Shown piece by piece: positions 688 through 21,116 of a stretch of DNA of 24,503 nucleotides (position 1 is the stretch's first letter; each line of letters begins with the position of its first letter). This DNA comes from a virus: IMG/VR virus record IMGVR_UViG_3300037070_001930, positions 1-24,503 of that record; one strand, given 5' to 3'. The notes below the pieces were generated by a model. That model made no database searches, was not told where the DNA came from, and saw only the letters and a program-made list of their open reading frames with translations. The position numbers were made by a program, and so were the translations under genes.

Positions 688-1434
688 TTACGAGTGGACG
701 AACAGGTTTCCGGGGACCACGTATGAGGGTTGATCTGTCGCGGCGGTGCCACCCGGACCATACGCACCACCGCTGGCACCGAACTGAGGCTGGCCGAGAG
801 TGATGCCGGTGATCTGTCCGTTGGTCGCACCCAGGTATCCGGGGTAGTTGCCGTAAGGCGTTGTCGTGCCAGAGTACGCACCCTGGTTGCCTGCGTACAC
901 CACATCTGGCAATCCGTGTGAGTGGCCCGGATCGCTCATAGTCGTGTCAACCGTACGGCTGATCGTCGGGTTCGTGAGAACGCTGGTGTTGTGCTTCGGG
1001 CGGCGGGACGCGAGCGTTACTCCGTCGTTGTCACCGATAGCGTCAACGTCAGCGTGGGTGCCCTTCATCGTCAGGGCACGGCCACGCGCGTCCGGCAGGG
1101 TCGCACCGACGAGGGCGATCAGAGGCGCACCGACCGTCGCTGATCCGTCGCAGATGTACCAGGTGCCTCCTGCCGGGTCAGCATGATTGGCCGTCTGCGC
1201 GCTGATCTTGTAGTCGCCCGTCGTGAACTGAGCGGAGCCACCAACGGGCGTCCAGGTGGACCCGTCCGAGAACGACATGGCCCCGGTGTCGAGGGCGAAG
1301 TAGAAGCTGTTGGGGGTGATCATGTTCGCGGCAGGCCGAGCCGCTGCTGTCCCGAACGCGATGGGACGATCCATGCCCTCCTTGCCCATCGCACCCTGGA
1401 TGCCGCGGAGATCGTCTGCTGGATTGGCTGTCAC
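688..1434 (-). CDS. Tail collar-type fibre protein
   Basis: This 248-residue protein carries hallmarks of phage tail-collar domains. A segment around residues 88-110 reads GGTWYICDGS followed by a hydrophobic stretch and LPDARGRALTMKG, the pattern seen in short tail fibres and Tail_Collar-family receptor proteins. A later glycine/threonine-rich region contains DPGHSHGLPD, a histidine pair like the metal-binding H-x-H of some collar fibres, and the C-terminal part is Gly/Thr/Tyr-rich. It starts with GTG in a GTGA overlap with the stop of the upstream nozzle-like gene, so the two are probably translated together. The likely role is a receptor-contacting or collar fibre at the tail tip. The assignment rests on motif recognition only; receptor specificity cannot be read from the sequence. 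Confidence 0.75.
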   Translation of the reverse strand: MTANPADDLRGIQGAMGKEGMDRPIAFGTAAARPAANMITPNSFYFALDTGAMSFSDGSTWTPVGGSAQFTTGDYKISAQTANHADPAGGTWYICDGSATVGAPLIALVGATLPDARGRALTMKGTHADVDAIGDNDGVTLASRRPKHNTSVLTNPTISRTVDTTMSDPGHSHGLPDVVYAGNQGAYSGTTTPYGNYPGYLGATNGQITGITLGQPQFGASGGAYGPGGTAATDQPSYVVPGNLFVHS

Positions 1435-2930
1435 GCGCGGCCCAAGTTGATGTAGTCGAAGCGGATCGCGTTGATGTGAGTCTCAGACGTGAACCGGGTT
1501 ACCCCGGTCGGTGCCATCACGATCTGGTTCGACCCGGAGCCAGCCGACCTGATGTCCAAGGAGATTGCGCGCATCACACCAAGCGAGTGCAGCTCGGTGA
1601 AGCCAGGGTCCCCTGTCACAGTCAGGGCTGCGCGAGCCTCAGTGGTGGTGCTGAAGTCCTTGGCGACGGCGAACGTGGCCGCAGCCGACCAGCCGTCGAT
1701 GATGCAGCGCCGCACCCGCACCTTGTCGAGAGCGAACGGCAGCCACGGCGTCAGGTAGCGGGCGGAGACGTTCGTGCCGCCAGTGCCGTTGAACGCCGAC
1801 ACGTAGTCCTTGGTGGCGATGGAGAACGTCGTGACCTCCTGCTGCGTCTTCCACATGCGGAGCATCTTCGTGCCGCCGCTGTCGAGAATGTAGGCACCCG
1901 CGGTCTGAGCGCCACCCGTTGCCGGGGTCACCGTCACGTAGATGACACCGCGAGCGGTCCCACCGTCGTTCAGCGAGTGGACCCACCACCCCTCGGTTTC
2001 AGGCACGTACTCGTAGATGAACGGAGACACGCCGCCGCCGATGGACGAGCGGGTGAAGTAAACGCGGCCCCAGGCGAACCATGCGTGCCAGTTGCCAGAC
2101 GAAGCGAAGCCCGCGTTGTCAGCCCACAACGGGTCGATGGAGACGCTGATCAACCTCAAGCCGTCTTCGGTGACGACGTAGACACCCGAGCGATTGCAGA
2201 CGTAGATCACCCCGGCGTACGAGGTCATCGCGTCCCTGCCGCCTGCGCCGTGATAGCCATCGACGGTGGTGTACGCGCCGGTCTCGGAGTCGTTGATCCT
2301 GTAGACGGAGTTCGACTTCCAGACGAGCAGGCCGGTACGCCCCACCACGTCCATGCCGTTGCCTGAGCCGATCCCGATGTTCTCGGTGTCGTCCATCTCC
2401 CTGATGTCAACGAAATCGGTGGCGGTCGTCCAGGTGGCAGCGGTGCCTGCGTTCGACCAGTAGACGCGGACGCCTCCGTTGCCGGTCACCCACACCTTGT
2501 TCTGCCAAACCGCGAGCACGTTGCCGACGACGGCGGCGGTCTTCAGCGCGTAGGTGTCGCCTGTGACCGTGAACACCCCGTCGATTGTGTGTACACCAAC
2601 AACATCGTCCAGAAAATCTGCGAGGTACAGGTTGCCGCCGCCTGTGAAAGCGTGGACGAGAGTGCGGCTGACGAACGTATCGGAGGACACCAGGTACGAA
2701 TAGAGGCTGTCGCCCTCGAAGCTGTAGAGCCGGTTCTCCGATTCCGACCAGTAGATGTAGCTGCCGGTCGCGGTGAGAGGACCCATCGACTCAGCACCGA
2801 GGCGCTTCTGCACCCCGTTCCCGAATCCGGTCATGTTGATGGCGTCCTGTGTGAAGCCCTGCTGCAACTGGCCTGGGCCGCTGACCACATCGAGGCCGCG
2901 GTTGAAGACTTCCAGGAGAGCGGTCTCCAT
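1431..2930 (-). CDS. Tail nozzle / hub protein, beta-propeller-like
   Basis: This 499-residue protein is almost entirely short beta-strand-like segments, with repeated aromatic/glycine patterns such as NRLYSFEGDSLYSY, NKVWVTGNGGVRVYWSN and GVYVVTEDGLRLIS, as in a propeller. Its length and position, directly after the adaptor-like genes and before the collar fibre, match the short-tail nozzle or hub proteins of podoviruses (T7 gp12, P22 gp10 stabilisation protein). These extend the tail tube below the adaptor ring and hold packaged DNA. The ATG at 2930 overlaps the stop region of the preceding adaptor-like gene. The structural class is an inference from composition and gene order; another beta-propeller virion protein is the alternative. 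Confidence 0.7.
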   Translation of the reverse strand: METALLEVFNRGLDVVSGPGQLQQGFTQDAINMTGFGNGVQKRLGAESMGPLTATGSYIYWSESENRLYSFEGDSLYSYLVSSDTFVSRTLVHAFTGGGNLYLADFLDDVVGVHTIDGVFTVTGDTYALKTAAVVGNVLAVWQNKVWVTGNGGVRVYWSNAGTAATWTTATDFVDIREMDDTENIGIGSGNGMDVVGRTGLLVWKSNSVYRINDSETGAYTTVDGYHGAGGRDAMTSYAGVIYVCNRSGVYVVTEDGLRLISVSIDPLWADNAGFASSGNWHAWFAWGRVYFTRSSIGGGVSPFIYEYVPETEGWWVHSLNDGGTARGVIYVTVTPATGGAQTAGAYILDSGGTKMLRMWKTQQEVTTFSIATKDYVSAFNGTGGTNVSARYLTPWLPFALDKVRVRRCIIDGWSAAATFAVAKDFSTTTEARAALTVTGDPGFTELHSLGVMRAISLDIRSAGSGSNQIVMAPTGVTRFTSETHINAIRFDYINLGRA

Positions 2931-3583
2931 TACGCCCCCAGGTTGCTCATGCCCGCGTAGTTGAGCGGGAGCATCGGCTGCGCCACAGCTTCGATCATCG
3001 CCTTCAGGCCGATCTGGAACTCCTCCTCCAAGAGCTGCCCGGTCGCATCGTTCTCCAGCTTCAGCGAGGTGGCTGCGGCACCGACGACGAGCAGGTAGTG
3101 GAAGGCGTCGTTGAAGATCGGCACGTCAGCGTCCGCAGACATCAGCCCGGACGTGACGACGGAAGCGACGAGCCGCGCGATCTTCCGCTCGTACATGCAG
3201 GTGTAGGTGACGGTCGCGTTCGGCGTCGGCCCGAGGATGATCGAGAACTCGGACCCGCCTGCGACCGACCAGTGAGTGGGGGCAGCGTTCGCGGAGGCGC
3301 GAAACATGTTCTGGTGCATGATCGGGTCGATGTACTCCAGCGGATTCCCTGCGGTGTCCCACACCTGAAGGATCCGCTGCACGTCGGCGCTGACCGTTGC
3401 GACCGGAGCCGACTGCGACCCGGTGGTCACCGTCACGTTCGCGGTGAGCGGCAGCTTGAACGCCCACGGTGCCGCCCCCCAAATCATCTGGTAGCGGTGG
3501 TTGATCGACCTCTTGATGTACGTGCGCTGAGTCTCGTCGAAGCGGTAGGCGATCAGCTCGTCCTGGATTTCCTTGTAGGTCAA
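2930..3583 (-). CDS. Head-tail adaptor-like protein, paralogue 3
   Basis: This 217-residue protein starts at TTG (3583), chosen because TAGGAGGT lies just upstream with good spacing. An N-terminal helix is followed by RSINHRYQMIWGAAPWAF (residues 25-42). Then come beta-rich segments with LGPTP near residues 117-121 and a helical C-terminus. The same layout occurs in the two genes immediately upstream, so the three are paralogues. The architecture and the position between capsid and nozzle genes fit podovirus head-to-tail adaptor proteins (P22 gp4, T7 gp11 and SU10-type adaptors), which form a dodecameric ring under the portal. Family membership is inferred from architecture. Which of the three contacts the portal is unknown. 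Confidence 0.7.
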   Translation of the reverse strand: MTYKEIQDELIAYRFDETQRTYIKRSINHRYQMIWGAAPWAFKLPLTANVTVTTGSQSAPVATVSADVQRILQVWDTAGNPLEYIDPIMHQNMFRASANAAPTHWSVAGGSEFSIILGPTPNATVTYTCMYERKIARLVASVVTSGLMSADADVPIFNDAFHYLLVVGAAATSLKLENDATGQLLEEEFQIGLKAMIEAVAQPMLPLNYAGMSNLGA

Positions 3584-3591
3584 GAGACCTC

Positions 3592-4266
3592 CTAGGCCAT
3601 CGCGGGCGGACGATCAGCCCGACCGAACTCACCCCTGATCGGAGGGATGCCGAGGTCAGCGATCATGGCGGTGATCGTGTCGTCGCGCATCTGGCGCAGA
3701 GCGACACTGGACCCGGTGTCAGGAGCTTCACCACGGATCGCGCGACCGATCATGGCCGCTGCGTAAACGAGAACCATGTGGTGGCTTGCTTCCCACAGAG
3801 GCTGTGAGGTGTCCAGCACCATCGGCCCTGCCGTCACTGTTGAACCGTCAGCGAGGAAGTGGGCGAGGCGGCGCTTGTAGGCGATGCGGAAGTTGGAGTT
3901 ACCGGAAGGCGTTGGGCCGAGATAGACGATCCGGTTCTCCATCTTCCAGGCGATGGGCGTTCCGGTCGTGGCTGCGATCAGACCCGGCATGTAGATCATG
4001 TCGAAGATGTCCGGGTCGAGCGGCTCCAGGTAGTTGCCGGTGTTGTCGAAGATGCGGAGGCTGTCGCCGTAATCGGCTGGAAGCGCCGGGGTATCGTCGC
4101 CCGTGGTCACAGCCATCACGACCGGCCCGACCCGCTGGAACTCCCACTCGGCGGCGTTCCACACCCAGCCGTACGCGGAGTCCAACCACCGGCGCGCGTG
4201 AGCCACGTCCTGCCCAGGATCGAAGCCCTGGTTGAGAATCTCGGCTACAAGGGCGGCACGGTTCAT
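3592..4266 (-). CDS. Head-tail adaptor-like protein, paralogue 2
   Basis: This 224-residue protein shares the three-paralogue layout. An N-terminal helical segment is followed by RWLDSAYGWVWNAAEWEF (residues 26-43), a beta-rich middle with YLGPTP near residues 115-120, and a helical C-terminal region containing HHMVLVYAAAMIGRAI. The ATG at 4266 lacks a clear ribosome site, so translation may depend on the upstream gene, whose stop lies 32 bases away. The likely role is a head-tail connector or adaptor subunit, as for its neighbours. Relative to the other two copies it has a longer C-terminal tail (about 20 extra residues, rich in Arg/Pro/Gly), which may extend toward the next ring. Confidence 0.7.
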   Translation of the reverse strand: MNRAALVAEILNQGFDPGQDVAHARRWLDSAYGWVWNAAEWEFQRVGPVVMAVTTGDDTPALPADYGDSLRIFDNTGNYLEPLDPDIFDMIYMPGLIAATTGTPIAWKMENRIVYLGPTPSGNSNFRIAYKRRLAHFLADGSTVTAGPMVLDTSQPLWEASHHMVLVYAAAMIGRAIRGEAPDTGSSVALRQMRDDTITAMIADLGIPPIRGEFGRADRPPAMA

Positions 4267-4298
4267 CTGGTGGGAAGCATAGGGCTGCTACCGGACGA

Positions 4299-4904
4299 TC
4301 AGAGGTCGTCGCGGCCGTACTGACGAGGCGATCCGCGGTCGGGGGGCAGGAACTCCTGAACCATCGCGTCGTAGAGCATCTGGAACTCGGACTCGACCTG
4401 CATCCACTTCAGGTCCCCTTCCTCCCGCATCCCTGCGGAGAGGGCACCCGTGATCAGAATGTTGTGGTACTCGGACGGGATCAGAGGCGTGTCGGTGTTC
4501 GCCACCAGCGGCGTCATCCGAGACTCGTACGCGATCTTGAACGTGTACGCCCCGTCGGGTGTCGGGCCGAGATACACCTGGCTGTTGATCATCGTCCAGT
4601 TGGCGGGCACCCCGGTGTTCGGCTGGTTCGTGTAGAGATCGTCGAACTGGTCCGGCGTGAGGTAGAAGACCTCGGTGCCCGACTGGTTGTAGATCCGGTT
4701 CACGACCGTCACCCCGGTCGGCATCGTCGGAGTGCTGTCGCCCGCCGTCACCGTCAGGTTGGCGAGCGCGTTCTTCTTGAACGGCCACTCCTGCTGCGAC
4801 CACAACCAGGCGTACCGCTGGTTGATCCACCGCTTGATCGTCGGGAGCATGTCCGGCGACCAGCGCGCGAGGATGACCGCCTTCTGAATGTCGAGGAAGG
4901 TCAT
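4299..4904 (-). CDS. Head-tail adaptor-like protein, paralogue 1
   Basis: This 201-residue protein is the first of three tandem paralogues downstream of the capsid gene. It has an N-terminal helix, then RWINQRYAWLWSQQEWPF (residues 25-42), a beta-rich centre with YLGPTPDG near 111-118, and a helical C-terminus ending in charged residues. The ATG at 4904 overlaps the upstream stop (ATGA), indicating coupled translation. By position and architecture it resembles podovirus adaptor proteins that dock onto the portal. As the copy nearest the capsid gene it is a reasonable guess for the portal-contacting adaptor, but the sequence does not prove this. Confidence 0.72.
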   Translation of the reverse strand: MTFLDIQKAVILARWSPDMLPTIKRWINQRYAWLWSQQEWPFKKNALANLTVTAGDSTPTMPTGVTVVNRIYNQSGTEVFYLTPDQFDDLYTNQPNTGVPANWTMINSQVYLGPTPDGAYTFKIAYESRMTPLVANTDTPLIPSEYHNILITGALSAGMREEGDLKWMQVESEFQMLYDAMVQEFLPPDRGSPRQYGRDDL

Positions 4905-5365
4905 ACGTTGTGGCCCGCCCGCCGCTGCCTACGACGTGCCATCACCAGGCCAGGGCTGCGCGGGAGAACGATGTGAGACCGGAACGACCGGGCCTGCATC
5001 TCTGCGAAGCCACGGACGTGTTCCGAGAACTTCTCGCGCTGCTTCAGCTTGAAGGCTTCGTTCTGCGCGTGAACACGACGGCTGAGAGCAATCGGGTCGC
5101 GCTCCATCCGGGCCATCCGGTTCACGATCCCCGACGACAGCACCGGAATCGCCTCGTTCGTGTCCGGGTCGCGCCACTCGAAAACGCAGAGGGGAGGCTG
5201 GTCCCCGTCGAGCTGGCACATCACGCACCAGACCTCCTGGTTGTCGAGCGTCAACTGCTTCTCCAGGAACAACCTGGGGTCGATCTGCTGGAGGTCGCGC
5301 TGGACAGCGTTCTTGTCGCCAGCCTGCTCCACGATGGTGAGTGCGCCGTAGCGGTAGGACTGCAT
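4901..5365 (-). CDS. Conserved-looking protein of unknown function between capsid and adaptors
   Basis: A 154-residue frame starts at ATG 5365 (MQSYRYGALTIVEQAG). The open frame extends further upstream, but that part looks non-coding and would overlap the capsid gene. Visible features are a DLQQIDPRLFLEKQ segment, three cysteines near residues 47, 50 and 60 (the first two spaced CxxC, WCVMC), a central acidic WRDPDTNEAIPVLSSG stretch, a long charged helix, and a strongly basic C-terminus (MARRRQRRAGHNV). No convincing ribosome site precedes it, and a strong hairpin lies 32 bases upstream. It overlaps the next gene by four bases. Its place in the structural operon suggests a minor head or connector component; the basic tail could bind DNA. 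I do not recognise a named family. Confidence 0.75.
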   Translation of the reverse strand: MQSYRYGALTIVEQAGDKNAVQRDLQQIDPRLFLEKQLTLDNQEVWCVMCQLDGDQPPLCVFEWRDPDTNEAIPVLSSGIVNRMARMERDPIALSRRVHAQNEAFKLKQREKFSEHVRGFAEMQARSFRSHIVLPRSPGLVMARRRQRRAGHNV

Positions 5366-5451: not shown

Positions 5452-6720
5452 TTACGAGGCCTGGTTGAGCGCCCCGACCTCCACGGTGCCGTTGCAGATG
5501 TGGAACCCGAGCTGCAAGTACCACACCAGCCACGCCTCGACCGGAAGCGACCGGGAGAAGCGCCGGAACATGTTGCCGTCCAACTCGTCCCAATCCGGCC
5601 CGTCGTCCAGCGTGTAGAGGGTGTAGTCCTCCAACTGCACGCCCACGGAGGTCTTGATCTTCATGTCGTAGTCCGGGACGAGGAGCTTGTTGCGGTACTT
5701 CACGCCCGTCCAACCCGACTTGAGCTGACCATCCTCACCTGCCCAGCGAGCCTGAACCGTCAGCCCCTGGGTGTACTTGTCCACGACGGCCGGATCGGTC
5801 AGGTAGAAGTCCGGCGTCTTGCCCCGGATCTCGCTGACGAGCCGTTCCGCGGTGTCGAACACGGCGATGGACGGATCCACCGGAGTGGTCGAACCGTCAC
5901 GACCGTCGATGCCCTGCCAGATCTCCAGCGCGGCCTTGTCGAGGTTCTCGAAGGTGCCCGTACGAGCGGCAGCCTGACCGATTCCCTGAACGGCCTTGCC
6001 GTACGACCCCTGGATGTAGACACCATCCGTGGCGGAGGCGGTGGCGAACGACGTGTTCGTGTCGTCGATGTTCTTCACCGTGATCAGCCCGGTGGACTTC
6101 ACCCGGAGCGTGATCACGACCGGCTGCGTGTGGCCTGAGACACGAACGCCCGTGGTGCGGACGAGCGCGTCCACGACGCGGCCCACGTAGAACTGGTGCC
6201 AGTTTGCGTCGGTGCCGACGTTGATGGTCTGCGTTGCACCACCGGAGGCACCCACGTTGCCCTGGACTGCGCGAAGCAGGGCGGTCCCGCCCTGAGACGC
6301 GACATCGAAGCCGGTCATCATCTCGTTGATCACGCGACCGAACGCATCCTCGGCGCGCTCCAGCTTCGTCGGGAGAGCTTCGGCCCACACGTTCTCGTCA
6401 CCGACGGCCTGCTTCAGCACCTGGGACGACAACGTGATCGGCAGGCCAACGATCCCGGAGAGGATGCGGGCCTGCTCGACATCGACGTTGATCGTGTCGT
6501 TGAACGTCGAAGTCTCGGTCATTCCGCCTGCGCCCTGCTGCGGCGCTGCGAAGATCGGGACGGTGACGTGGCGACCACTCCACCGCTTCGGAGACTTGTC
6601 ACGCTTGATCTCCGAGAGCAGGACGGTCTTGAACTTCATGGCCTCTTGCAGAGGACCCTTGGCCTCCCGCATCAGCTCGGCCCACGAAGTCGTGGTATCT
6701 GGTCCTCTTACGTCTGCCAT
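5452..6720 (-). CDS. Major capsid protein (HK97-fold candidate)
   Basis: This 422-residue protein forms the head shell. The N-terminal helical region has a FKTVLLSEIKRDKSPKRW segment and then GRHVTVPIFAAPQQGAGGM, resembling the N-arm/E-loop of capsid proteins. An A-domain-like part follows, with a C-terminal region containing KYRNKLLVPDYDMK and a hydrophobic end (EAWLVWYLQLGF). The length is typical of HK97-fold coats without a fused protease. It lies directly after the scaffolding-like gene, the usual order. AAAGGAG is well placed before the ATG at 6720. An insertion-like, threonine-rich stretch around residues 160-240 may be a surface I-domain. Assignment is by context and general sequence character, and is fairly secure. 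Confidence 0.85.
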   Translation of the reverse strand: MADVRGPDTTTSWAELMREAKGPLQEAMKFKTVLLSEIKRDKSPKRWSGRHVTVPIFAAPQQGAGGMTETSTFNDTINVDVEQARILSGIVGLPITLSSQVLKQAVGDENVWAEALPTKLERAEDAFGRVINEMMTGFDVASQGGTALLRAVQGNVGASGGATQTINVGTDANWHQFYVGRVVDALVRTTGVRVSGHTQPVVITLRVKSTGLITVKNIDDTNTSFATASATDGVYIQGSYGKAVQGIGQAAARTGTFENLDKAALEIWQGIDGRDGSTTPVDPSIAVFDTAERLVSEIRGKTPDFYLTDPAVVDKYTQGLTVQARWAGEDGQLKSGWTGVKYRNKLLVPDYDMKIKTSVGVQLEDYTLYTLDDGPDWDELDGNMFRRFSRSLPVEAWLVWYLQLGFHICNGTVEVGALNQAS

Positions 6721-6755: not shown

Positions 6756-7514
6756 TCAGCCGACCGGCATTGTCGAGCGGTTACGCCTCTCCAAGACGCG
6801 CTCGATTGCGGTGGCGTACTTCCCCGGCCCGGTGGGGATTTCCTCCCCTTCGTGTGCCGAGTTTCCAACGGGAGTCTCAAGAGGGGCACCTCCGAGTTCC
6901 CTGATCTCCTGCTCCACCTTCGCACGCTCTTCCGAGCGGATGCGCTGCTCGAAATCGCGGGTCATGGTGGCAGCCTGCTGAAGCGCCTGTGCAGGATCCA
7001 CACCTTCGTCGTTCAAGAACCCGGAACCGACCATGAAGGCCATGTCGTGGTCGAACGATCCGACCTCGCCTTCGATCCGGCCCAGCTCTGCCTTTGCCAG
7101 CTCCTCGCCCTTGTCGGACGAGATCATGCCCAGCAAACCCTGGTACGGCCCAAGCTGCTCGGCCAGGAGCGCCTGTGCTTCGGCCTGGATCATCCGCTTC
7201 ACGGACTCCGGGTCGAACGGGTCGTACTCCTCTGCGAAGTCAACCTGCGGCTCCTGCGGCTGGTTCGCCGCCTGCATCTGCTGAAGGTACGCGGCCAGAT
7301 TCGGGATCTGGCTGAGTGCCTCCTGCGCCTGATCCCACTGCTCCTGCGAAAGCGCGAACGCCTCCGGCTCGGGAGCGTCGGGTTCCGGTGCGTCCGGCTC
7401 TGACTCGGGCGGAGGCTCTTCCCCTTCGACCACTTCACCACCACGCATGATCGGAATGAGCCGACCTTCGTAGTAGGTGGCGAGGCCCGCAGCGATCAGA
7501 TCGTTTTCGTTCAT
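6756..7514 (-). CDS. Scaffolding protein candidate
   Basis: This 252-residue, acidic, Gln/Glu/Pro-rich protein lies immediately upstream of the capsid gene, the classic place for the capsid scaffold. It begins MNENDLIAAGLATYYEGRLI. A long acidic proline-rich linker follows (EPDAPEPDAPEPEAF), then helical Q/E-rich stretches likely to form coiled coils (ALSQIPNLAAYLQQMQAANQ; EQRIRSEERAKVEQEIREL), and a basic C-terminus (ERVLERRNRSTMP) that could bind the inner capsid wall electrostatically, as in P22 scaffold. Its ATG overlaps the upstream stop (TGATG) with an AGGAA ribosome site. Scaffolds diverge quickly in sequence, so this rests on composition and position. Confidence 0.75.
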   Translation of the reverse strand: MNENDLIAAGLATYYEGRLIPIMRGGEVVEGEEPPPESEPDAPEPDAPEPEAFALSQEQWDQAQEALSQIPNLAAYLQQMQAANQPQEPQVDFAEEYDPFDPESVKRMIQAEAQALLAEQLGPYQGLLGMISSDKGEELAKAELGRIEGEVGSFDHDMAFMVGSGFLNDEGVDPAQALQQAATMTRDFEQRIRSEERAKVEQEIRELGGAPLETPVGNSAHEGEEIPTGPGKYATAIERVLERRNRSTMPVG

Positions 7515-8221: not shown

Positions 8222-9088
8222 CTACCAGATGTCAGAGCCGAACATGACAGTCTCGTCCCACAGAGGCTTCAAGTTGAAGGTCACCGAAGTCACAGGCGAG
8301 TCGAGCGTAACACTGATCGTGCCGATGCCCGCGACGGCGGCAGCGAGTGCCTTCTCGTTCGCCATCGAGACGGCCACCGTGGTCTGACCGACCACCGCTG
8401 CGTCCATCCCACGGATCGGATCCAGGGTGGTGGCGATGATGGTGAGACCGGCGACAGCCGCATCGAAAGTGACGGTGGAGCCGCCCGCGGTCACGTCGAT
8501 GTCCACGGTGACGAACGACCCGGCAGGCTGCACCGGAGCCACCAGCGAGATCTGCCGCACGATGTCTGCGACGACGGTGCCGATCCCCTGAACGGTGGCC
8601 GCCAAGTCAACGGTCCGTGACATGTCAGCGGTGACGATCCCCTGACCGTTCACGGACGCGGCCAACCCGATGGTGCGAACCAGATCGGCAGAGACGGTCG
8701 CCTGACCAACCACGGTGGCGTCCATGTTTTTCACCCGAATCAGATCCACGGTGACGACGCCGTTCCCGACCACGGTGGCTGCCAAGGCAATCGTGTTCGC
8801 CAGCGCAGCCGAGATAGATGCCTGCCCTGCGATCAGTGCTCCCAGCGAGAGCTGATTCACGGTCTGTGCGGCGACGACAGCCTGACCGACGACGAGCGCA
8901 TCCAGTGCGCGCGTCCGAGTCACATCGGCAGAGACCACTGACTGACCTGCTACGACTGCATCGAAGGTGACGACGCCGCCCGCACCTGACGGGGCGATCA
9001 GGTCACGGTCGAACTCTCCCTCTGCGGAAGCCGTCTCGTCAAACCACCCGATGCCTTCAAGAGTGGGATCGAAAATCCCGACGGCCAT
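8222..9088 (-). CDS. Protein of tandem 20-residue beta repeats, probable virion appendage
   Basis: This 288-residue protein has a short N-terminal segment (MAVGIFDPTLEGIGWFDETA) and an acidic linker. About eleven consecutive ~20-residue units follow, with a pattern like L-x-A-x-V-x-G-Q-x-x-V-x-A-x-L-x-R-x-x-x, for example MDATVVGQATVSADLVRTIG and LAASVNGQGIVTADMSRTVD. A short aromatic tail (PLWDETVMFGSDIW) closes it. Regular alternation of hydrophobic and small residues at constant spacing suggests a beta-solenoid or an array of small beta modules. It is encoded among head genes, so a capsid-surface or fibre role is inferred. There are no transmembrane segments or signal peptide. One unit near residues 185-210 is longer and irregular. 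Confidence 0.8.
   Translation of the reverse strand: MAVGIFDPTLEGIGWFDETASAEGEFDRDLIAPSGAGGVVTFDAVVAGQSVVSADVTRTRALDALVVGQAVVAAQTVNQLSLGALIAGQASISAALANTIALAATVVGNGVVTVDLIRVKNMDATVVGQATVSADLVRTIGLAASVNGQGIVTADMSRTVDLAATVQGIGTVVADIVRQISLVAPVQPAGSFVTVDIDVTAGGSTVTFDAAVAGLTIIATTLDPIRGMDAAVVGQTTVAVSMANEKALAAAVAGIGTISVTLDSPVTSVTFNLKPLWDETVMFGSDIW
8291..8968 (-). repeat. About eleven tandem 20-residue protein repeats
   Basis: This marks the repeat-coding part of the 288-residue protein. Units are 20 residues (60 bases) with one longer insertion-bearing unit. They are conserved mainly at the protein level (G-Q or G-x-G turn, alternating valines), while the DNA has diverged, so the array looks old rather than recently expanded. 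Boundaries are approximate. Confidence 0.75.
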
Positions 9089-11644: not shown

Positions 11645-13747
11645 CTACCGGACGCCACGCGGGGCGCGCGGGGTGTTCCCCTGCGAGGTTGCCTGAGCCG
11701 CGCCCTTCGCGTTCGTGTGTTCCCCGGACTGAGCTTCGACGCCGCGGCCACCCTGCGCGGACGGGACCGACGCCGAAGGAGCCTTCATCGCAGCCGACTC
11801 GACGTGCGCCTTCTCATGCGCGAGGACCGCTTCCAGCAGCGCAATCGTCTTCTCGTCAGCAGCACCCGACCGGACGCTGTACTCCAGGTCCCAGCGGAAC
11901 GCGCGATGGATCGACAGGTGCATCATGTCGTCGTCGAACGGATCCGGCAGCACCATCGCGCCCTGCGCCATGAAGTAGTGCTCCATCTCCGCCTTCCGCT
12001 GCTGCACCTGCTCCTCGCGCTTCGGGAACGCCAGCGGGCGGCCAGCGTCGATGCTGTCCTTCAGCCACTCAGGAGGCAGCGGCTGTCCAGCAGACGTGGC
12101 GGCGTGGAACAGGTCAAAAATCTTCTGCGCTTCGGCAGCGGGGGAGGTCGGCAGAGGCGACTGCTTGGACGGGTGAACGTAGAACTCGTCCGGCCACGCC
12201 GCCTTCTTGTAGATGTGGACCTCGACCTGGCTGTCCCGGCCGACGATGGCGATGCGCTTCTCGTCGCGCCAGTACCGCTTCGCCAGGTGCAGCGTCAGCA
12301 TCAGCGAGTCGCACAAGCCCATCCTGATGTTCTTCAGGGTCGGGCCTACGCGCCGGTCGTCTGCCTGCTGGAGGAGCGCCATTGCGCTGAACGCTTCAAC
12401 TCCCTCTGGTGCCTGCCCCATCGAGGAATCGTGCAGCCCCGCGACACGCTCCATGTCGTTGTGGTTGATCTCCGCTTCCTGCTGGACCCAAGGCCCGATT
12501 CCACCGCCAGCCACCTCCTGCGGATACTCCGCGTGCATTGGAACCTCGATCAGTTCCATGATCTTGCCGGTGGGCATCGTCGCCTCGGTCAGCGTTCCCT
12601 TCCGCGCGTAGACGCGCCCGAGGTTCCGGTCCTTCAGCTCGATGTTCTGCGACCGCGCCCGGTTCAGTTGGCGGTTCGGGCCGATCAGGTCTTCGATGAC
12701 TCCCTTGCCGAGGAAGCGCCCGTCCACCGTGTTGTAGTGGAAGAACGTGATCCCGGTGTGCGGCCTGCCCTTCAGCATGTACGGCAGGTGGTCCGTCTTC
12801 GACAGGATCGTGGACTCCGTGAACTCGATGGTGCGGCCCTTCGGGTTCTTCGGGGTCGGCATCTCGTAGTAGGTGGTGATCAGCGTGTGTTCCTTCAGCT
12901 TCCCAGCCGTCGTCGGGCTGCCACCCTGCGCCCCATCGGACAGGTCGCGCCCTGACGTGGTGGTGCGAAGATCCATCTCGTGGAGCTTCCCGGCCGACTT
13001 GGGCCAGCGCTCCTTCGCGTCCTGCAACCAGACGGCGCGCTCGATCATCAGCCAGGGGAAGTTGCGTTCCTTCTCCACACCGGGCGGGACGATGATGTTC
13101 AGCGGGCCGAGGGCTTCCCAGCAGATGCGGCCCTCGCGGACAGGCTTCATCTTCGGCTGGATCCCGGCCTGCATCGCCATCGCCATGTACTCGCGCGCCG
13201 CGGCCATGTCGTAGATCGGCTCGCCGTCGTCCCCGACAGGGAACTCGCCCAACTCCGGACCCTGCATCGGGTCGAAGTAGCAGCGCAGCGCAGATGTCCC
13301 GTACGTACAAAGCTTGTGGATCAGGTCGTAGCATTCGCTGTCAGCTTCGACCTCGGTGTCCCACAGGTAGCGCGAAGTCTTCTGGAGGTGGGTGGCGATC
13401 TCCTCGGCGTCCACGTCCTCGTTCTCCGCGAACAGCACGTCGGGACGCAGTTCCTCCACGTACAGCTTCCCCAGCACCGTCGAGTGGTAGGTGCCGATCA
13501 TGTTGACGGTGTGGCGCTCCCGCTTCTGCGGGTTCGGCTCCTCTACGACGCGCCGGTTGCGCTCAGACCATCCGACCCAATGACGGCCCGCGAGAAAGCT
13601 CTCGCAGAGCCGCCATGTGGGTTCGTACTTCTTCCGCTCGTCCAACCCCTGCTTGCGCCGGTCAAGGACCTTCGTAAGAAGCTCGTCGTCGGCAGGGCTG
13701 GTGCCCTCTTGGGCCAGTCGTGCTGGCTCGTCGTAGAGGGCACTCAC
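11645..13747 (-). CDS. Portal protein (P22-sized)
   Basis: This 700-residue protein is the dodecameric DNA gate at one capsid vertex. Features include the charged N-terminal helix (KVLDRRKQGLDERKKYEPTW), WRLCESFLAGRHWVGW, and the central VNMIGTYHSTVLGKLYVEEL. A later wing/stem region contains FHYNTVDGRFLGKGVIEDL and GPNRQLNRARSQNIELKDRN in sequence, typical of large podovirus-type portals. The C-terminal ~80 residues are low-complexity Ala/Ser/Gly/Gln and may lie in the head interior as a barrel or tail. Length is close to P22 gp1 (about 725). The GTG start overlaps the upstream stop (GTGA). Gene order terminase-portal-scaffold-capsid supports the call. Confidence 0.88.
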   Translation of the reverse strand: MSALYDEPARLAQEGTSPADDELLTKVLDRRKQGLDERKKYEPTWRLCESFLAGRHWVGWSERNRRVVEEPNPQKRERHTVNMIGTYHSTVLGKLYVEELRPDVLFAENEDVDAEEIATHLQKTSRYLWDTEVEADSECYDLIHKLCTYGTSALRCYFDPMQGPELGEFPVGDDGEPIYDMAAAREYMAMAMQAGIQPKMKPVREGRICWEALGPLNIIVPPGVEKERNFPWLMIERAVWLQDAKERWPKSAGKLHEMDLRTTTSGRDLSDGAQGGSPTTAGKLKEHTLITTYYEMPTPKNPKGRTIEFTESTILSKTDHLPYMLKGRPHTGITFFHYNTVDGRFLGKGVIEDLIGPNRQLNRARSQNIELKDRNLGRVYARKGTLTEATMPTGKIMELIEVPMHAEYPQEVAGGGIGPWVQQEAEINHNDMERVAGLHDSSMGQAPEGVEAFSAMALLQQADDRRVGPTLKNIRMGLCDSLMLTLHLAKRYWRDEKRIAIVGRDSQVEVHIYKKAAWPDEFYVHPSKQSPLPTSPAAEAQKIFDLFHAATSAGQPLPPEWLKDSIDAGRPLAFPKREEQVQQRKAEMEHYFMAQGAMVLPDPFDDDMMHLSIHRAFRWDLEYSVRSGAADEKTIALLEAVLAHEKAHVESAAMKAPSASVPSAQGGRGVEAQSGEHTNAKGAAQATSQGNTPRAPRGVR

Positions 13748-15225: not shown

Positions 15226-16623
15226 CTAGAGCATCCGCAGATTGCGGTCTTCCGGGTGAACGGCCTTGTCGAGCCGATGCTCCAGAAGGCGCTCCAGATA
15301 GGGCTTTTCTTCTTCCTGTTCGATGGGCGACGGCATCCGCGACATGATCGCGTAGCGGAGCGCGTCCAAAGCGTCGTCGTTCTCCTTCTCGATGTCGTCG
15401 GTGCCCTCCTTGATCTTCGCGGACGGCAGCTCCCTGATCACGTTCGCGCAGGTGTCGAAGAAGCGCATCCGCGGGAAACCGTCGGCCATCCGCTCAGACA
15501 GCATCTCGTCGATCCGGTTCCAGCCGCCCAAGCGTTCGTTCTGAGCGCGCGCAGCGAAGATGCCGTAGTCCGCGAACTCCAAGGCGGTGGACTCGTACTC
15601 GGAACGCTTCGCCCAGGTGGACGGGTCCATCCAGCGCGACGACGGGGCGATGTTCAGCCGCTGCTCCAGCTTCAGCATCTCGGCGCAATGCCACGAAACC
15701 GGCTTCTCGCGCTCGTAGTGCTCCGCGACCACCCACCAGCGGCCCTCGAAGTCGATGGCGACCCACACGGCAGCGGTCGGGTGGTTCCAGCCGTAGTCGA
15801 TGGCCTGGATGACCTCCCAGGACTGCGGGATCTCGAAAGGGGTGCAGACGTGGATGGCTGGATCCCACACAGGGAACCGCTTGCCGCCGAACGCGCCCCA
15901 TTCGCCCAGGATGAAGCGCCGGAAGAACATCGGGTTCGTCTCCTTGCGCCGCATCATCCGCGCGTAGTACCTCGGGTCGAGGTTGTGCCTGTTCTCCATC
16001 AGGGAGACGGCAACGCGGCGGGTCTGCGGCTCCTTCGTCAGCGGATCGACGAAGCGGTTGTACACCCAATGATCCTCGGGACCTGGGTTAGCGACCAGCA
16101 GCGCCTTCCCAGGCCCGCGAGGGTCGCTCATTCTACTGGTCAGCGTCTCGTAGAGCTGGAAGTACGCGGCTCCGGTCAACTCCTCCACCTGGTCGATGAA
16201 GAACCCGGCGATGGTGACGTTGCGGATCTTGTCTTCCGCCTCAGATGCGTTCTCGGCTGAACGGAACAGGATCTGCGCCCCGTTCTTCAAGATCAGCGTC
16301 TCGTCCTTCGCCAAGTACCGCTCGATCAGCTCGGGCGGGCAGGCTGCGGGCATCCGACCGTCGCCCTTGTAGAAAGCAGCCTGAACGGAGTCCGCCAGCT
16401 CTCGGTAGGTCTTCCGCATGACCACGAACTTCCAGTTGGGGCCACCGTACTTCCAGGCCCAGGCGACGATCAGCTTGCAGGCACCCTGCGTCTTCCCGGA
16501 ACGGATCGCGCCGTCGAAAAGGACCTCCTCAGCGTCCGGGTGGTTCGCTTCGGCCCAAAAGTCGATCTGCTTCTGGTTCGGGACGAACGTGTCGCGGACG
16601 ACCTTGACGCCGAGGTCTGTCAC
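15226..16623 (-). CDS. terL: Terminase large subunit
   Basis: This 465-residue DNA-packaging motor has an N-terminal ATPase and a C-terminal nuclease. The Walker A motif is GAIRSGKT (residues 38-45). The Walker B region is AGFFIDQVEEL, with D144 and acidic E147/E148. RxGxP-like and ANPGPEDHWVYN segments fit motif III. The nuclease domain has RFILGEWGAFGGKRFPVWDP, the first acidic residue in AIDYGW (D276) and the late acidic cluster DDALDALRYAI. The motif order and length match standard tailed-phage TerL. The GTG start overlaps the small-subunit stop (GTGA). The motor docks on the portal and cuts concatemers. The Walker B reads D-Q-V-E rather than the commoner D-E, a variant I regard as tolerated. 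Confidence 0.93.
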   Translation of the reverse strand: MTDLGVKVVRDTFVPNQKQIDFWAEANHPDAEEVLFDGAIRSGKTQGACKLIVAWAWKYGGPNWKFVVMRKTYRELADSVQAAFYKGDGRMPAACPPELIERYLAKDETLILKNGAQILFRSAENASEAEDKIRNVTIAGFFIDQVEELTGAAYFQLYETLTSRMSDPRGPGKALLVANPGPEDHWVYNRFVDPLTKEPQTRRVAVSLMENRHNLDPRYYARMMRRKETNPMFFRRFILGEWGAFGGKRFPVWDPAIHVCTPFEIPQSWEVIQAIDYGWNHPTAAVWVAIDFEGRWWVVAEHYEREKPVSWHCAEMLKLEQRLNIAPSSRWMDPSTWAKRSEYESTALEFADYGIFAARAQNERLGGWNRIDEMLSERMADGFPRMRFFDTCANVIRELPSAKIKEGTDDIEKENDDALDALRYAIMSRMPSPIEQEEEKPYLERLLEHRLDKAVHPEDRNLRML

Positions 16624-17505: not shown

Positions 17506-18648
17506 GTGACGGACATTACGAGGGCAGACCGGGTGAAGCCACTTGCGATCAAGTGGCTTTGGCGAGGTCGGATCCCTTGCGGGATGATCAGCATTGTCGC
17601 TGGCCGTCCGGGTGAGGGTAAGTCGATGTTCGCGGCGCATCTGGCCGCTGACATCTCGAAGACGGGCCAGTTGGTCATTTCCAGCAACATGGAGGATCCG
17701 CTGGCGCAGGTTGTCCGGCCGCGGTTCGAGGCGGCTGGCGCGGACCTGACGAAGATCGAGTTCGTGCAGGGGATCTACGGCCTGCCGGACGGTTTCGAGC
17801 AAGTCGAGGAGCTGGTGCGGAAGATGAAGCCCGCCCTGTTCCTGATGGATCCGATTGCCGCCCATCTGCGGGTGTCGATCTTCAACGATCAGGAGGTCCG
17901 CACCGTCCTGTCGCCGCTGTCGAAGCTGGCAGCCGAGACCGGGACGGCGTTCGTGTTCATCCACCACGTCGTCAAGAACTTCACCGGGGGCTACGCGCTG
18001 AGAGCGGTCGGCGGGTCCGGTGGAGGTCTGCCGGGTGCTGCGCGCGCGGTCTACATCTTCGGGTCGAAGTCGAAGGGAACCGACGAGAGGTTCCTGGCGA
18101 CGGCCAAGTTCAACCTGAACGTGTGGCCCAAGGCGGTGGCTTTCGAGGTCGAGGACCACGAGTTCGTCATCGGCAAGGGAAAGAACGCGCAGATGCTTTC
18201 GGCTGGGTCGCTGATCGTGACGGACGACGAGGACAAGACGACGGCGGAGGCAATCCTGGAAGGGTCGATGCCGTCAATCGCAGAGGACAGCAGCCCGAAG
18301 AAGGCTCTGGCCGCGGCGTCCCTGACGACGTATCTTGCAGACGGCCCGCAGCCGTCGAACGAGCTGCGTGAGGACATGCTTCAGGAGGGCCACACATGGA
18401 AGACGGTGAGGAATGCGGCGGAAGCTATCGGCATTGAGAAGGTCCGCGTTGGCTTCGGTGGTTCGGGATATTGGGTGTGGGCACTTCCGCCTGGGCACCC
18501 GGCCCTCAGCCCCATCGCCGCGGGTCTACCTGTCGCTGGTGACGACGAACCCGTACAAGATGAACCCGAGGACGGGGTACAGGTTCCAGCCGAAGATGAC
18601 GTTCACGTCAGCGACGGATCTGTGGTCGAGGGCGGCGAAGATGCCTAA
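17506..18648 (+). CDS. RecA-fold AAA ATPase, RepA/DnaB-like helicase candidate
   Basis: A 380-residue protein beginning at GTG 17506 with AGGAGG five bases upstream. The core is a RecA-type ATPase: Walker A GRPGEGKS (residues 33-40), sensor/strand region (LVISSNMEDPLAQVVRPRF), Walker B ALFLMDP (residues 110-116), a GTAFVFIHHVVK strand, and GGSGGGLPGAARAVYIFG. The C-terminal part has a winged-helix-like segment (LREDMLQEGHTWKTVRNAAE ... GFGGSGYWVWALP), then an acidic tail. This is the layout of RepA/AAA_25-like ATPases linked to phage and plasmid replication. It leads the rightward cluster, as expected for a replication gene. No primase or polymerase domain is attached. The helicase role is inferred. 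Confidence 0.82.
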   Translation: MTDITRADRVKPLAIKWLWRGRIPCGMISIVAGRPGEGKSMFAAHLAADISKTGQLVISSNMEDPLAQVVRPRFEAAGADLTKIEFVQGIYGLPDGFEQVEELVRKMKPALFLMDPIAAHLRVSIFNDQEVRTVLSPLSKLAAETGTAFVFIHHVVKNFTGGYALRAVGGSGGGLPGAARAVYIFGSKSKGTDERFLATAKFNLNVWPKAVAFEVEDHEFVIGKGKNAQMLSAGSLIVTDDEDKTTAEAILEGSMPSIAEDSSPKKALAAASLTTYLADGPQPSNELREDMLQEGHTWKTVRNAAEAIGIEKVRVGFGGSGYWVWALPPGHPALSPIAAGLPVAGDDEPVQDEPEDGVQVPAEDDVHVSDGSVVEGGEDA

Positions 18649-20141: not shown

Positions 20142-20500
20142 GCGTGTTCCTTATGCCGGTGATCAGCCTGGTCTTCGGCGTCCAGGTCTACTGCCACAGC
20201 AACCAGGCCGAGTGGCAGGCGCATCTGAAGCAAGAGAACGTTCCTGCAACGGCGACCGCGTACTACTACCCGGTCCGCAAAGACATCATCCTAGGACCGC
20301 TCGCCTGCAACAACATCGGTACGCAGTTCGGCGCATGGGTGATGGCCCATGAGCTGGCGCATGTGTGGCAGGAGGAGCAAGGGAGGACTTTCGACGAGCC
20401 GGAGGCGGACAGGATCGCCAACCGGACATGGAGCAAGGTTCGAGCGCGCATCTGCAAAGCCAGGGCGTGTGTAGGTCAAATGGTGCGGATTGCACCCTAA
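20138..20500 (+). CDS. Small zinc metallopeptidase-like protein (HExxH)
   Basis: A 120-residue protein starting at TTG 20138 (TTGA overlap with the previous stop) or possibly at ATG 20153. It carries a zincin motif VMAHELAHVWQ (HELAH, residues 71-75). A downstream EPEADRIANRTW supplies a likely third zinc ligand (E89 or D91), matching the H-E-x-x-H ... E/D layout of small peptidases. The N-terminal ~20 residues are hydrophobic (MPVISLVFGVQVYC), so export or membrane association is possible, and C19/C57 could form a disulfide. Substrate is unknown. Similar HExxH proteins occur in actinobacteria. It could alternatively be inactive or regulatory; the catalytic residues are intact. Confidence 0.78.
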   Translation: MSVFLMPVISLVFGVQVYCHSNQAEWQAHLKQENVPATATAYYYPVRKDIILGPLACNNIGTQFGAWVMAHELAHVWQEEQGRTFDEPEADRIANRTWSKVRARICKARACVGQMVRIAP

Positions 20501-20513
20501 CGAGAGGGTCGAA

Positions 20514-21116
20514 GTGAGAAGGATCCATCTGTTCGTGGCTGCGGTGGTGCTGGCGGTGGTGCTTGTGGGCACCGTCCAGGCCGCGCAGTCGGACGACGGC
20601 AAGCGTCTTGCCGGTCCGTTCTGTGTCGGCAAGGCAAACGTGCCCAACCTCCGCGGCATTCTGCGCGCAGGGGTGGTCAGGTCGGTGGCGTTCGGCAAGA
20701 AGTGCCGCCCGACCGAGGACCCGAAGACTGGCTTGGCTGTTTCCGGGCCGCGTGGCCCGCAGGGTCCGCAGGGACCGGCCGGACCTCAGGGTCCCGCTGG
20801 AGGTCCAGGCGGTCAGGGATCGGCTGGTCCGGCAGGTGCGAAGGGCGCTGACGGTCTGAAGGGACCCGCTGGCCCTGCTGGACCTGCTGGACCGGCTGGT
20901 CCTCCTGGCAAGGACGGCAAGGACGGGACGTGTCAGGCAGCACACAGCCTGAAGTCCGGTCCGCACACGTACCCGACGCCTAGCGGCTGCGGCATCGGCA
21001 ACGCGATTGGCTACCTGTGCGTGTCGAACGGCGGCAACGTGAAGTGGGGCGGCTACGACGGCAAGGGCTGCGACCCCGGCCACGATTACGTGGTCAAGGT
21101 CGCCGTCGTCAAGTAG
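20514..21116 (+). CDS. Exported collagen-like (G-x-y) repeat protein
   Basis: A 200-residue protein from GTG 20514, chosen over TTG 20490 because GAGAGGG precedes it and the N-terminus then reads as a signal peptide (MRRIHLFVAAVVLAVVLVGT, likely cut near QA|AQ). A folded N-terminal domain with two cysteines leads into about 20 consecutive Gly-x-y triplets (residues ~78-139, mainly GPA, GPQ and GKD types), a collagen-like triple-helix segment. A C-terminal domain with four cysteines follows (CQAAHS, SGCGIG, GYLCVS, GKGCDPG). Trimerisation and export to the host surface are inferred. It sits beside the metallopeptidase gene in the rightward cluster, not among fibre genes, so it is probably not a tail fibre. 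Resemblance to actinobacterial exported collagen-like proteins suggests host origin. Confidence 0.78.
   Translation: MRRIHLFVAAVVLAVVLVGTVQAAQSDDGKRLAGPFCVGKANVPNLRGILRAGVVRSVAFGKKCRPTEDPKTGLAVSGPRGPQGPQGPAGPQGPAGGPGGQGSAGPAGAKGADGLKGPAGPAGPAGPAGPPGKDGKDGTCQAAHSLKSGPHTYPTPSGCGIGNAIGYLCVSNGGNVKWGGYDGKGCDPGHDYVVKVAVVK

Follow-up and report, generated by a model that had tools for sequence, protein, structure and literature searches.

Gene organization of the locus

The window, meaning the whole stretch of DNA analysed here, is a 24,503-base IMG/VR entry from an uncultured short-tailed phage; it is classed as linear, that is, without end repeats, and such records are often fragments. The virion genes lie on the minus strand, running from the terminase through the portal, a set of small and fibre-like genes and a probable scaffold to the capsid, followed by a small conserved gene, three adaptor-like genes, a probable nozzle gene and a tail protein. 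The features on which the argument draws are as follows:

15226..16623, minus strand: terminase large subunit (phrog_2, 2.3e-40), used as a query for relatives
11645..13747, minus strand: portal protein (P22_portal PF16510, 1.1e-16; phrog_156)
6756..7514, minus strand: probable scaffolding protein, adjoining the capsid gene and conserved in relatives
5452..6720, minus strand: major capsid protein (phrog_14242, E 2.9e-19)
4901..5365, minus strand: small conserved gene, about 154 residues counted from the ATG at 5365
4299..4904, minus strand: AdA, adaptor paralogue 1, 201 residues (PF24175, AlphaFold2 model, Foldseek)
3592..4266, minus strand: AdB, adaptor paralogue 2, 224 residues (PF24175, AlphaFold2 model, Foldseek)
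2930..3583, minus strand: AdC, adaptor paralogue 3, 217 residues (PF24175, segment scores)
1431..2930, minus strand: probable nozzle gene, 499 residues (position and profile shared with relatives)

The stop of the small conserved gene overlaps the start of AdA (ATGA), and the start of the nozzle gene overlaps the stop of AdC, which itself begins with a TTG codon preceded by a strong Shine-Dalgarno sequence (aggaggt). The small gene, for which no match was found in Pfam or PHROG, lies between the capsid gene and the adaptor(s) in near relatives, whose versions are 38-42% identical to that of the window; it possibly encodes a head completion protein. The probable scaffolding gene is likewise without a family match in Pfam or PHROG.

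Elsewhere in the record, a gene at 8222-9088 on the minus strand encodes a protein of imperfect repeats (VVGQA.VSAD..RT..L.A type) that resembles a fibre or decoration protein; the repeat is common to the group, since the protein is matched twice, with overlap, in one relative (L016). On the strand opposite the virion genes, an ORF at 20490-21116 (plus) carries a long collagen-like G-X-Y run (GPRGPQGPQGPAGPQGPAG...) after a hydrophobic N-terminus, and a gene at 17506-18648 (plus) encodes an ATPase (Walker A motif, GRPGEGKS), 44-53% identical in relatives, which is probably a replication gene.

Three diverged adaptors of the SU10 family

The initial annotation had recognized three tandem adaptor-like paralogues here, sharing a W/Y-rich element and an LGPTP motif, and this description holds in each of its parts. 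All three ORFs are intact, and BLASTP recovers every pair across most of each protein (AdA-AdB, E = 4e-32, 32% identity; AdA-AdC, E = 2e-29, 29%; AdB-AdC, E = 3e-21, 30%), with pairwise identities of 26-32% in a MAFFT alignment. At the level of sequence they are therefore homologous far beyond chance, and paralogues. Their high third-position GC (0.92, 0.80 and 0.90 for AdA, AdB and AdC) supports their being coding. The W/Y element and LGPTP align across the three; the latter is not peculiar to them, with PTP found elsewhere in the family (as FSPTP in the related adaptor of L004) and IGPT in those of L034/L036.

The SU10_adaptor profile (PF24175) identifies exactly three places in the record, namely AdA, AdB and AdC. 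The curated cut-off of 27 bits is exceeded by each (71.0, 44.9 and 51.8 bits, respectively), and the matches span profile positions 1 to 181-182 of 194. Of the adaptor types that the initial annotation had put forward for a profile search, it is thus the SU10 type that is recovered in all three copies; the Pfam families of P22 gp4 and T7 gp11 were not matched at E values up to 1. Structure prediction agrees for the two copies modelled with AlphaFold2 (mean pLDDT 83.5 for AdA and 86.0 for AdB), in which very low confidence (below 50) is confined to the C-terminal tails. Foldseek searches of the PDB with both models retrieved podophage adaptors, including those of Pa223, VP1, SU10, GP4, N4 and T7 and the crAss001 rings, with E values to SU10 (7z47) of 2.0e-8 for AdA and 1.3e-5 for AdB. 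With identities of 8-18% to the matched adaptors, the modest TM-scores (about 0.4-0.66) are to be expected. The models hence support an adaptor fold, a helix bundle plus a beta domain, for AdA and AdB, while for AdC it is the sequence that makes it an adaptor homolog.

Several characterized systems offer points of comparison. The SU10 family, typified by gp11 of Escherichia phage SU10, resembles the window copies in sequence family, in predicted fold and in the placement of the gene near the nozzle gene, but SU10 and the other phages checked have one copy rather than three in tandem. The crAss001 tail barrel (R1-R4, Crassvirales) likewise brings together multiple paralogues with the adaptor fold in a single podovirus, with a Foldseek match to AdA and AdB and similarly low identity between paralogues; it comprises five stacked dodecameric rings made of four paralogous proteins in a barrel of 23 nm (PMC10172136). 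However, its rings belong to the Pfam families CrAss_Ring_1, _2 and _3_4, none of which is matched by the window copies, and its ring genes are not all adjacent, the gene for the portal-proximal R1 adjoining the muzzle gene. Membership of the window copies among the crassvirus rings was accordingly rejected: they match PF24175 only, and the crAss001 rings are above cut-off for the CrAss families only. In the tail of Ralstonia phage GP4 (PDB 8jov), two chains of the portal-tail complex are listed as matches to the AdA and AdB models, though at just 12-14% identity. T7 gp11, a Foldseek match of both models, and P22 gp4 share the helix bundle of adaptors and its C-terminal element for gripping the portal but occur as one copy and lack a sequence family match to the window copies.

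One adaptor in the relatives, three in the window

Searches with the terminase and the capsid protein recovered uncultured relatives with terminases 63-71% and capsid proteins 58-70% identical to those of the window. In three of them (L032, L034 and L036) the small conserved gene and the nozzle gene flank a single adaptor and leave no space for more; the interval in L032 holds one additional ORF of 78 residues. With the more distant L054, L055 and L057, exactly one adaptor is present in all six relatives with readable context, a count that leaves out L014, L029 and L030, the contigs of which stop within or just past the first adaptor. In L014, the conserved small gene is separated from the adaptor by two inserted genes (11701-13361), one long and LamG-like in appearance, the other small. 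A further contig (L007) is identical to the window from the terminase to the portal and stops short of the adaptors.

Among cultured phages, tblastn with four adaptor queries, covering 33, 42, 28 and 179 records in sets that may overlap, found one place per record every time, and thus no second adaptor at the sensitivity used. No close cultured relatives were found for the capsid or nozzle, and none in bacterial genomes by capsid alignment or terminase. The three-gene array, seen in one contig, is therefore special to the window among the relatives sampled. The initial annotation had taken one adaptor to be the rule for podoviruses; this stands for the relatives with readable context but is too narrow in general, since crAss001 stacks five rings and the tails of Gram-negative podophages, GP4 being cited alongside crAss001, were reported in 2024 to contain one to three dodecameric adaptors (PMC11784390). 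Stacked adaptor rings are hence already known, and what is new is a tandem array of three SU10-family genes in a group with one adaptor in each of its other sampled members.

In the trees the trio does not form one clade, and a one-clade constraint is not rejected (AU p 0.16-0.29). By identity, AdC is nearest to the adaptor of L032 (40%) and AdA to that of L036 (38%); AdB has the longest branch in the trio and is the most divergent copy.

The copies differ in what they keep of the single-copy adaptor. A profile built from six single-copy adaptors (213 positions) is covered by AdA from 1 to 210, by AdC from 1 to 196, without the C-terminal tail, and by AdB only in its middle, from 6 to 172; AdA scores 190 bits against 176 for AdC. 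The C-terminal motif LPPDxxxxxQYGRD, common to the near single-copy relatives and not conserved in the more distant single adaptors of L054 and L055, is kept in AdA, partial in AdB and lost in AdC. AdC scores level with the single-copy adaptors among themselves over helix 1 and the loop that joins it to helix 2; AdA and AdB have lower scores in that loop. Counting invariant residues retained in only one of the two outer copies, the C-terminal tail has six found in AdA alone and none in AdC alone, whereas the C-terminal helices have two and nine, respectively. This unevenness by segment gives a permutation p of 0.0005, for segments picked after the alignment was seen; a segment-free runs test on the same residues is not significant (p = 0.085). 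As judged from the alignment, AdA and AdC hold complementary parts of the single-copy adaptor and AdB holds neither well, although the segments retained by AdC may reflect mere kinship to L032-like adaptors. In solved structures, the C-terminal region binds the portal: SU10 uses embracing loops (PMC9509320), and T7 an embracing helix that grips the portal stem, with the loop between helices 1 and 2 docking on the nozzle (PMC6702177).

The identity of the nozzle gene, for which PDB and Pfam profiles matched nothing, rests on its position and its relatives. A profile of the window protein and its relatives matches, in CRP-9 (E 1.4e-13) and Y3 (5.9e-8), the gene that directly follows the single adaptor, as well as gene 0007 of C72C1 (2.2e-10), making 1431..2930 a probable nozzle gene. 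Most of an N-terminal signature (DFSGGxN...NE...N.T.DE.G) survives in the nozzles of single-copy relatives, even those with capsids only 28-40% identical. In the window, this platform (residues 1-45; 2796-2930, minus strand) retains 7 of 17 invariant residues, whereas every relative retains at least 85%; the rest of the window protein retains 40 of 63 (platform versus rest, Fisher p 0.16). The platform domain of the SU10 nozzle contacts the adaptor. The window nozzle may have adapted to a changed partner, conceivably AdB; alternatively, its divergence may have other causes.

A candidate stack of three adaptor rings

We consider it somewhat better than an even chance that the three proteins form three stacked homododecamers, with AdB lying between a portal-side AdA and a nozzle-side AdC. 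Each diverged SU10-type adaptor would make its own ring of twelve subunits between portal and nozzle: the AdA ring would sit on the portal, its presumed docking partner, and be held by the AdA C-terminal tail; the AdC ring would use its helix 1-2 loop to contact the nozzle; and AdB, altered on both faces, would serve as a spacer, such that the order of the rings repeats that of the genes. Since five rings make up 23 nm in crAss001, or about 4.6 nm per ring, the two extra rings would render the neck roughly 9 nm longer than in the single-adaptor relatives. We infer the formation of rings, their stacking and order, the gain in length and any benefit from it. The stacked reading is supported by the match of the AdA and AdB models to adaptors that include the stacked crAss001 rings and by the single adaptor before the nozzle gene in relatives, and the complementary retention of segments favours AdA at the portal and AdC at the nozzle. 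The proposals in the initial annotation are thus supported in part: the divergence of the docking segments agrees with layered rings that divide portal and nozzle docking between them, and ring formation and ring order are predicted. The relative order of AdB and AdC is the weak part of the arrangement, because the loss of the platform signature, the main difficulty here, is odd if the nozzle-facing side of AdC is ancestral. The non-significant runs test, the unconserved C-terminal tail in L054 and L055 and the possible kinship of AdC to L032-like adaptors also count against the arrangement.

The same evidence can be read in other ways. One copy, most likely AdA, might build a single adaptor ring, with the other two put to secondary use, for instance as a collar or as a docking ring for tail fibres. 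The length of the AdB branch and the absence of a portal-gripping tail in AdC are consistent with this, and the SU10 and T7 adaptors also bear the fibre dock (PMC9509320, PMC6702177); however, AdB and AdC still match the adaptor family in full, the single-copy profile fits AdC almost as well as AdA, and the crAss001 paralogues stack as rings (PMC10172136), leaving this reading rather unlikely in our estimate. We regard it as improbable that the array arose by recombination among related phages and provides redundant or alternative adaptors, one used per virion or host. The placement of the trio outside one clade in the tree (even if one clade is not rejected) and the differing nearest relatives of AdC and AdA would fit such an origin, but every copy is intact with strong third-position GC, dead duplicates would hardly remain open at 26-32% identity, and the retention in AdA and AdC is complementary. 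Finally, adjacent genes of similar length on one strand might supply a mixed ring of the three proteins (e.g. 4+4+4), with the usual neck length and three kinds of subunit, all the more as two conformations are already seen among neighbouring subunits in the adaptor ring of SU10 (PMC9509320). This appears less probable still, given that crAss001, the closest solved case, has one protein per ring (PMC10172136) and that the segment pattern separates top from bottom, as stacking predicts.

Returning to the stack of three homododecamers, it can be tentatively extended to the proposal that a group outside the crassviruses independently derived a neck of three layers from one ancestral adaptor by triplicating its gene in tandem, the genes being ordered like the rings and the portal and nozzle contacts of the ancestor being split between the outer copies; we hold this fuller version to be possible, and short of probable. 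Were the stack real, it would represent lengthening of the neck by the copying of one ring gene outside the crassviruses, beside single-ring relatives with capsids 58-70% identical. It would also make it possible to test directly how a two-partner ring splits into portal-facing, spacer and nozzle-facing versions.
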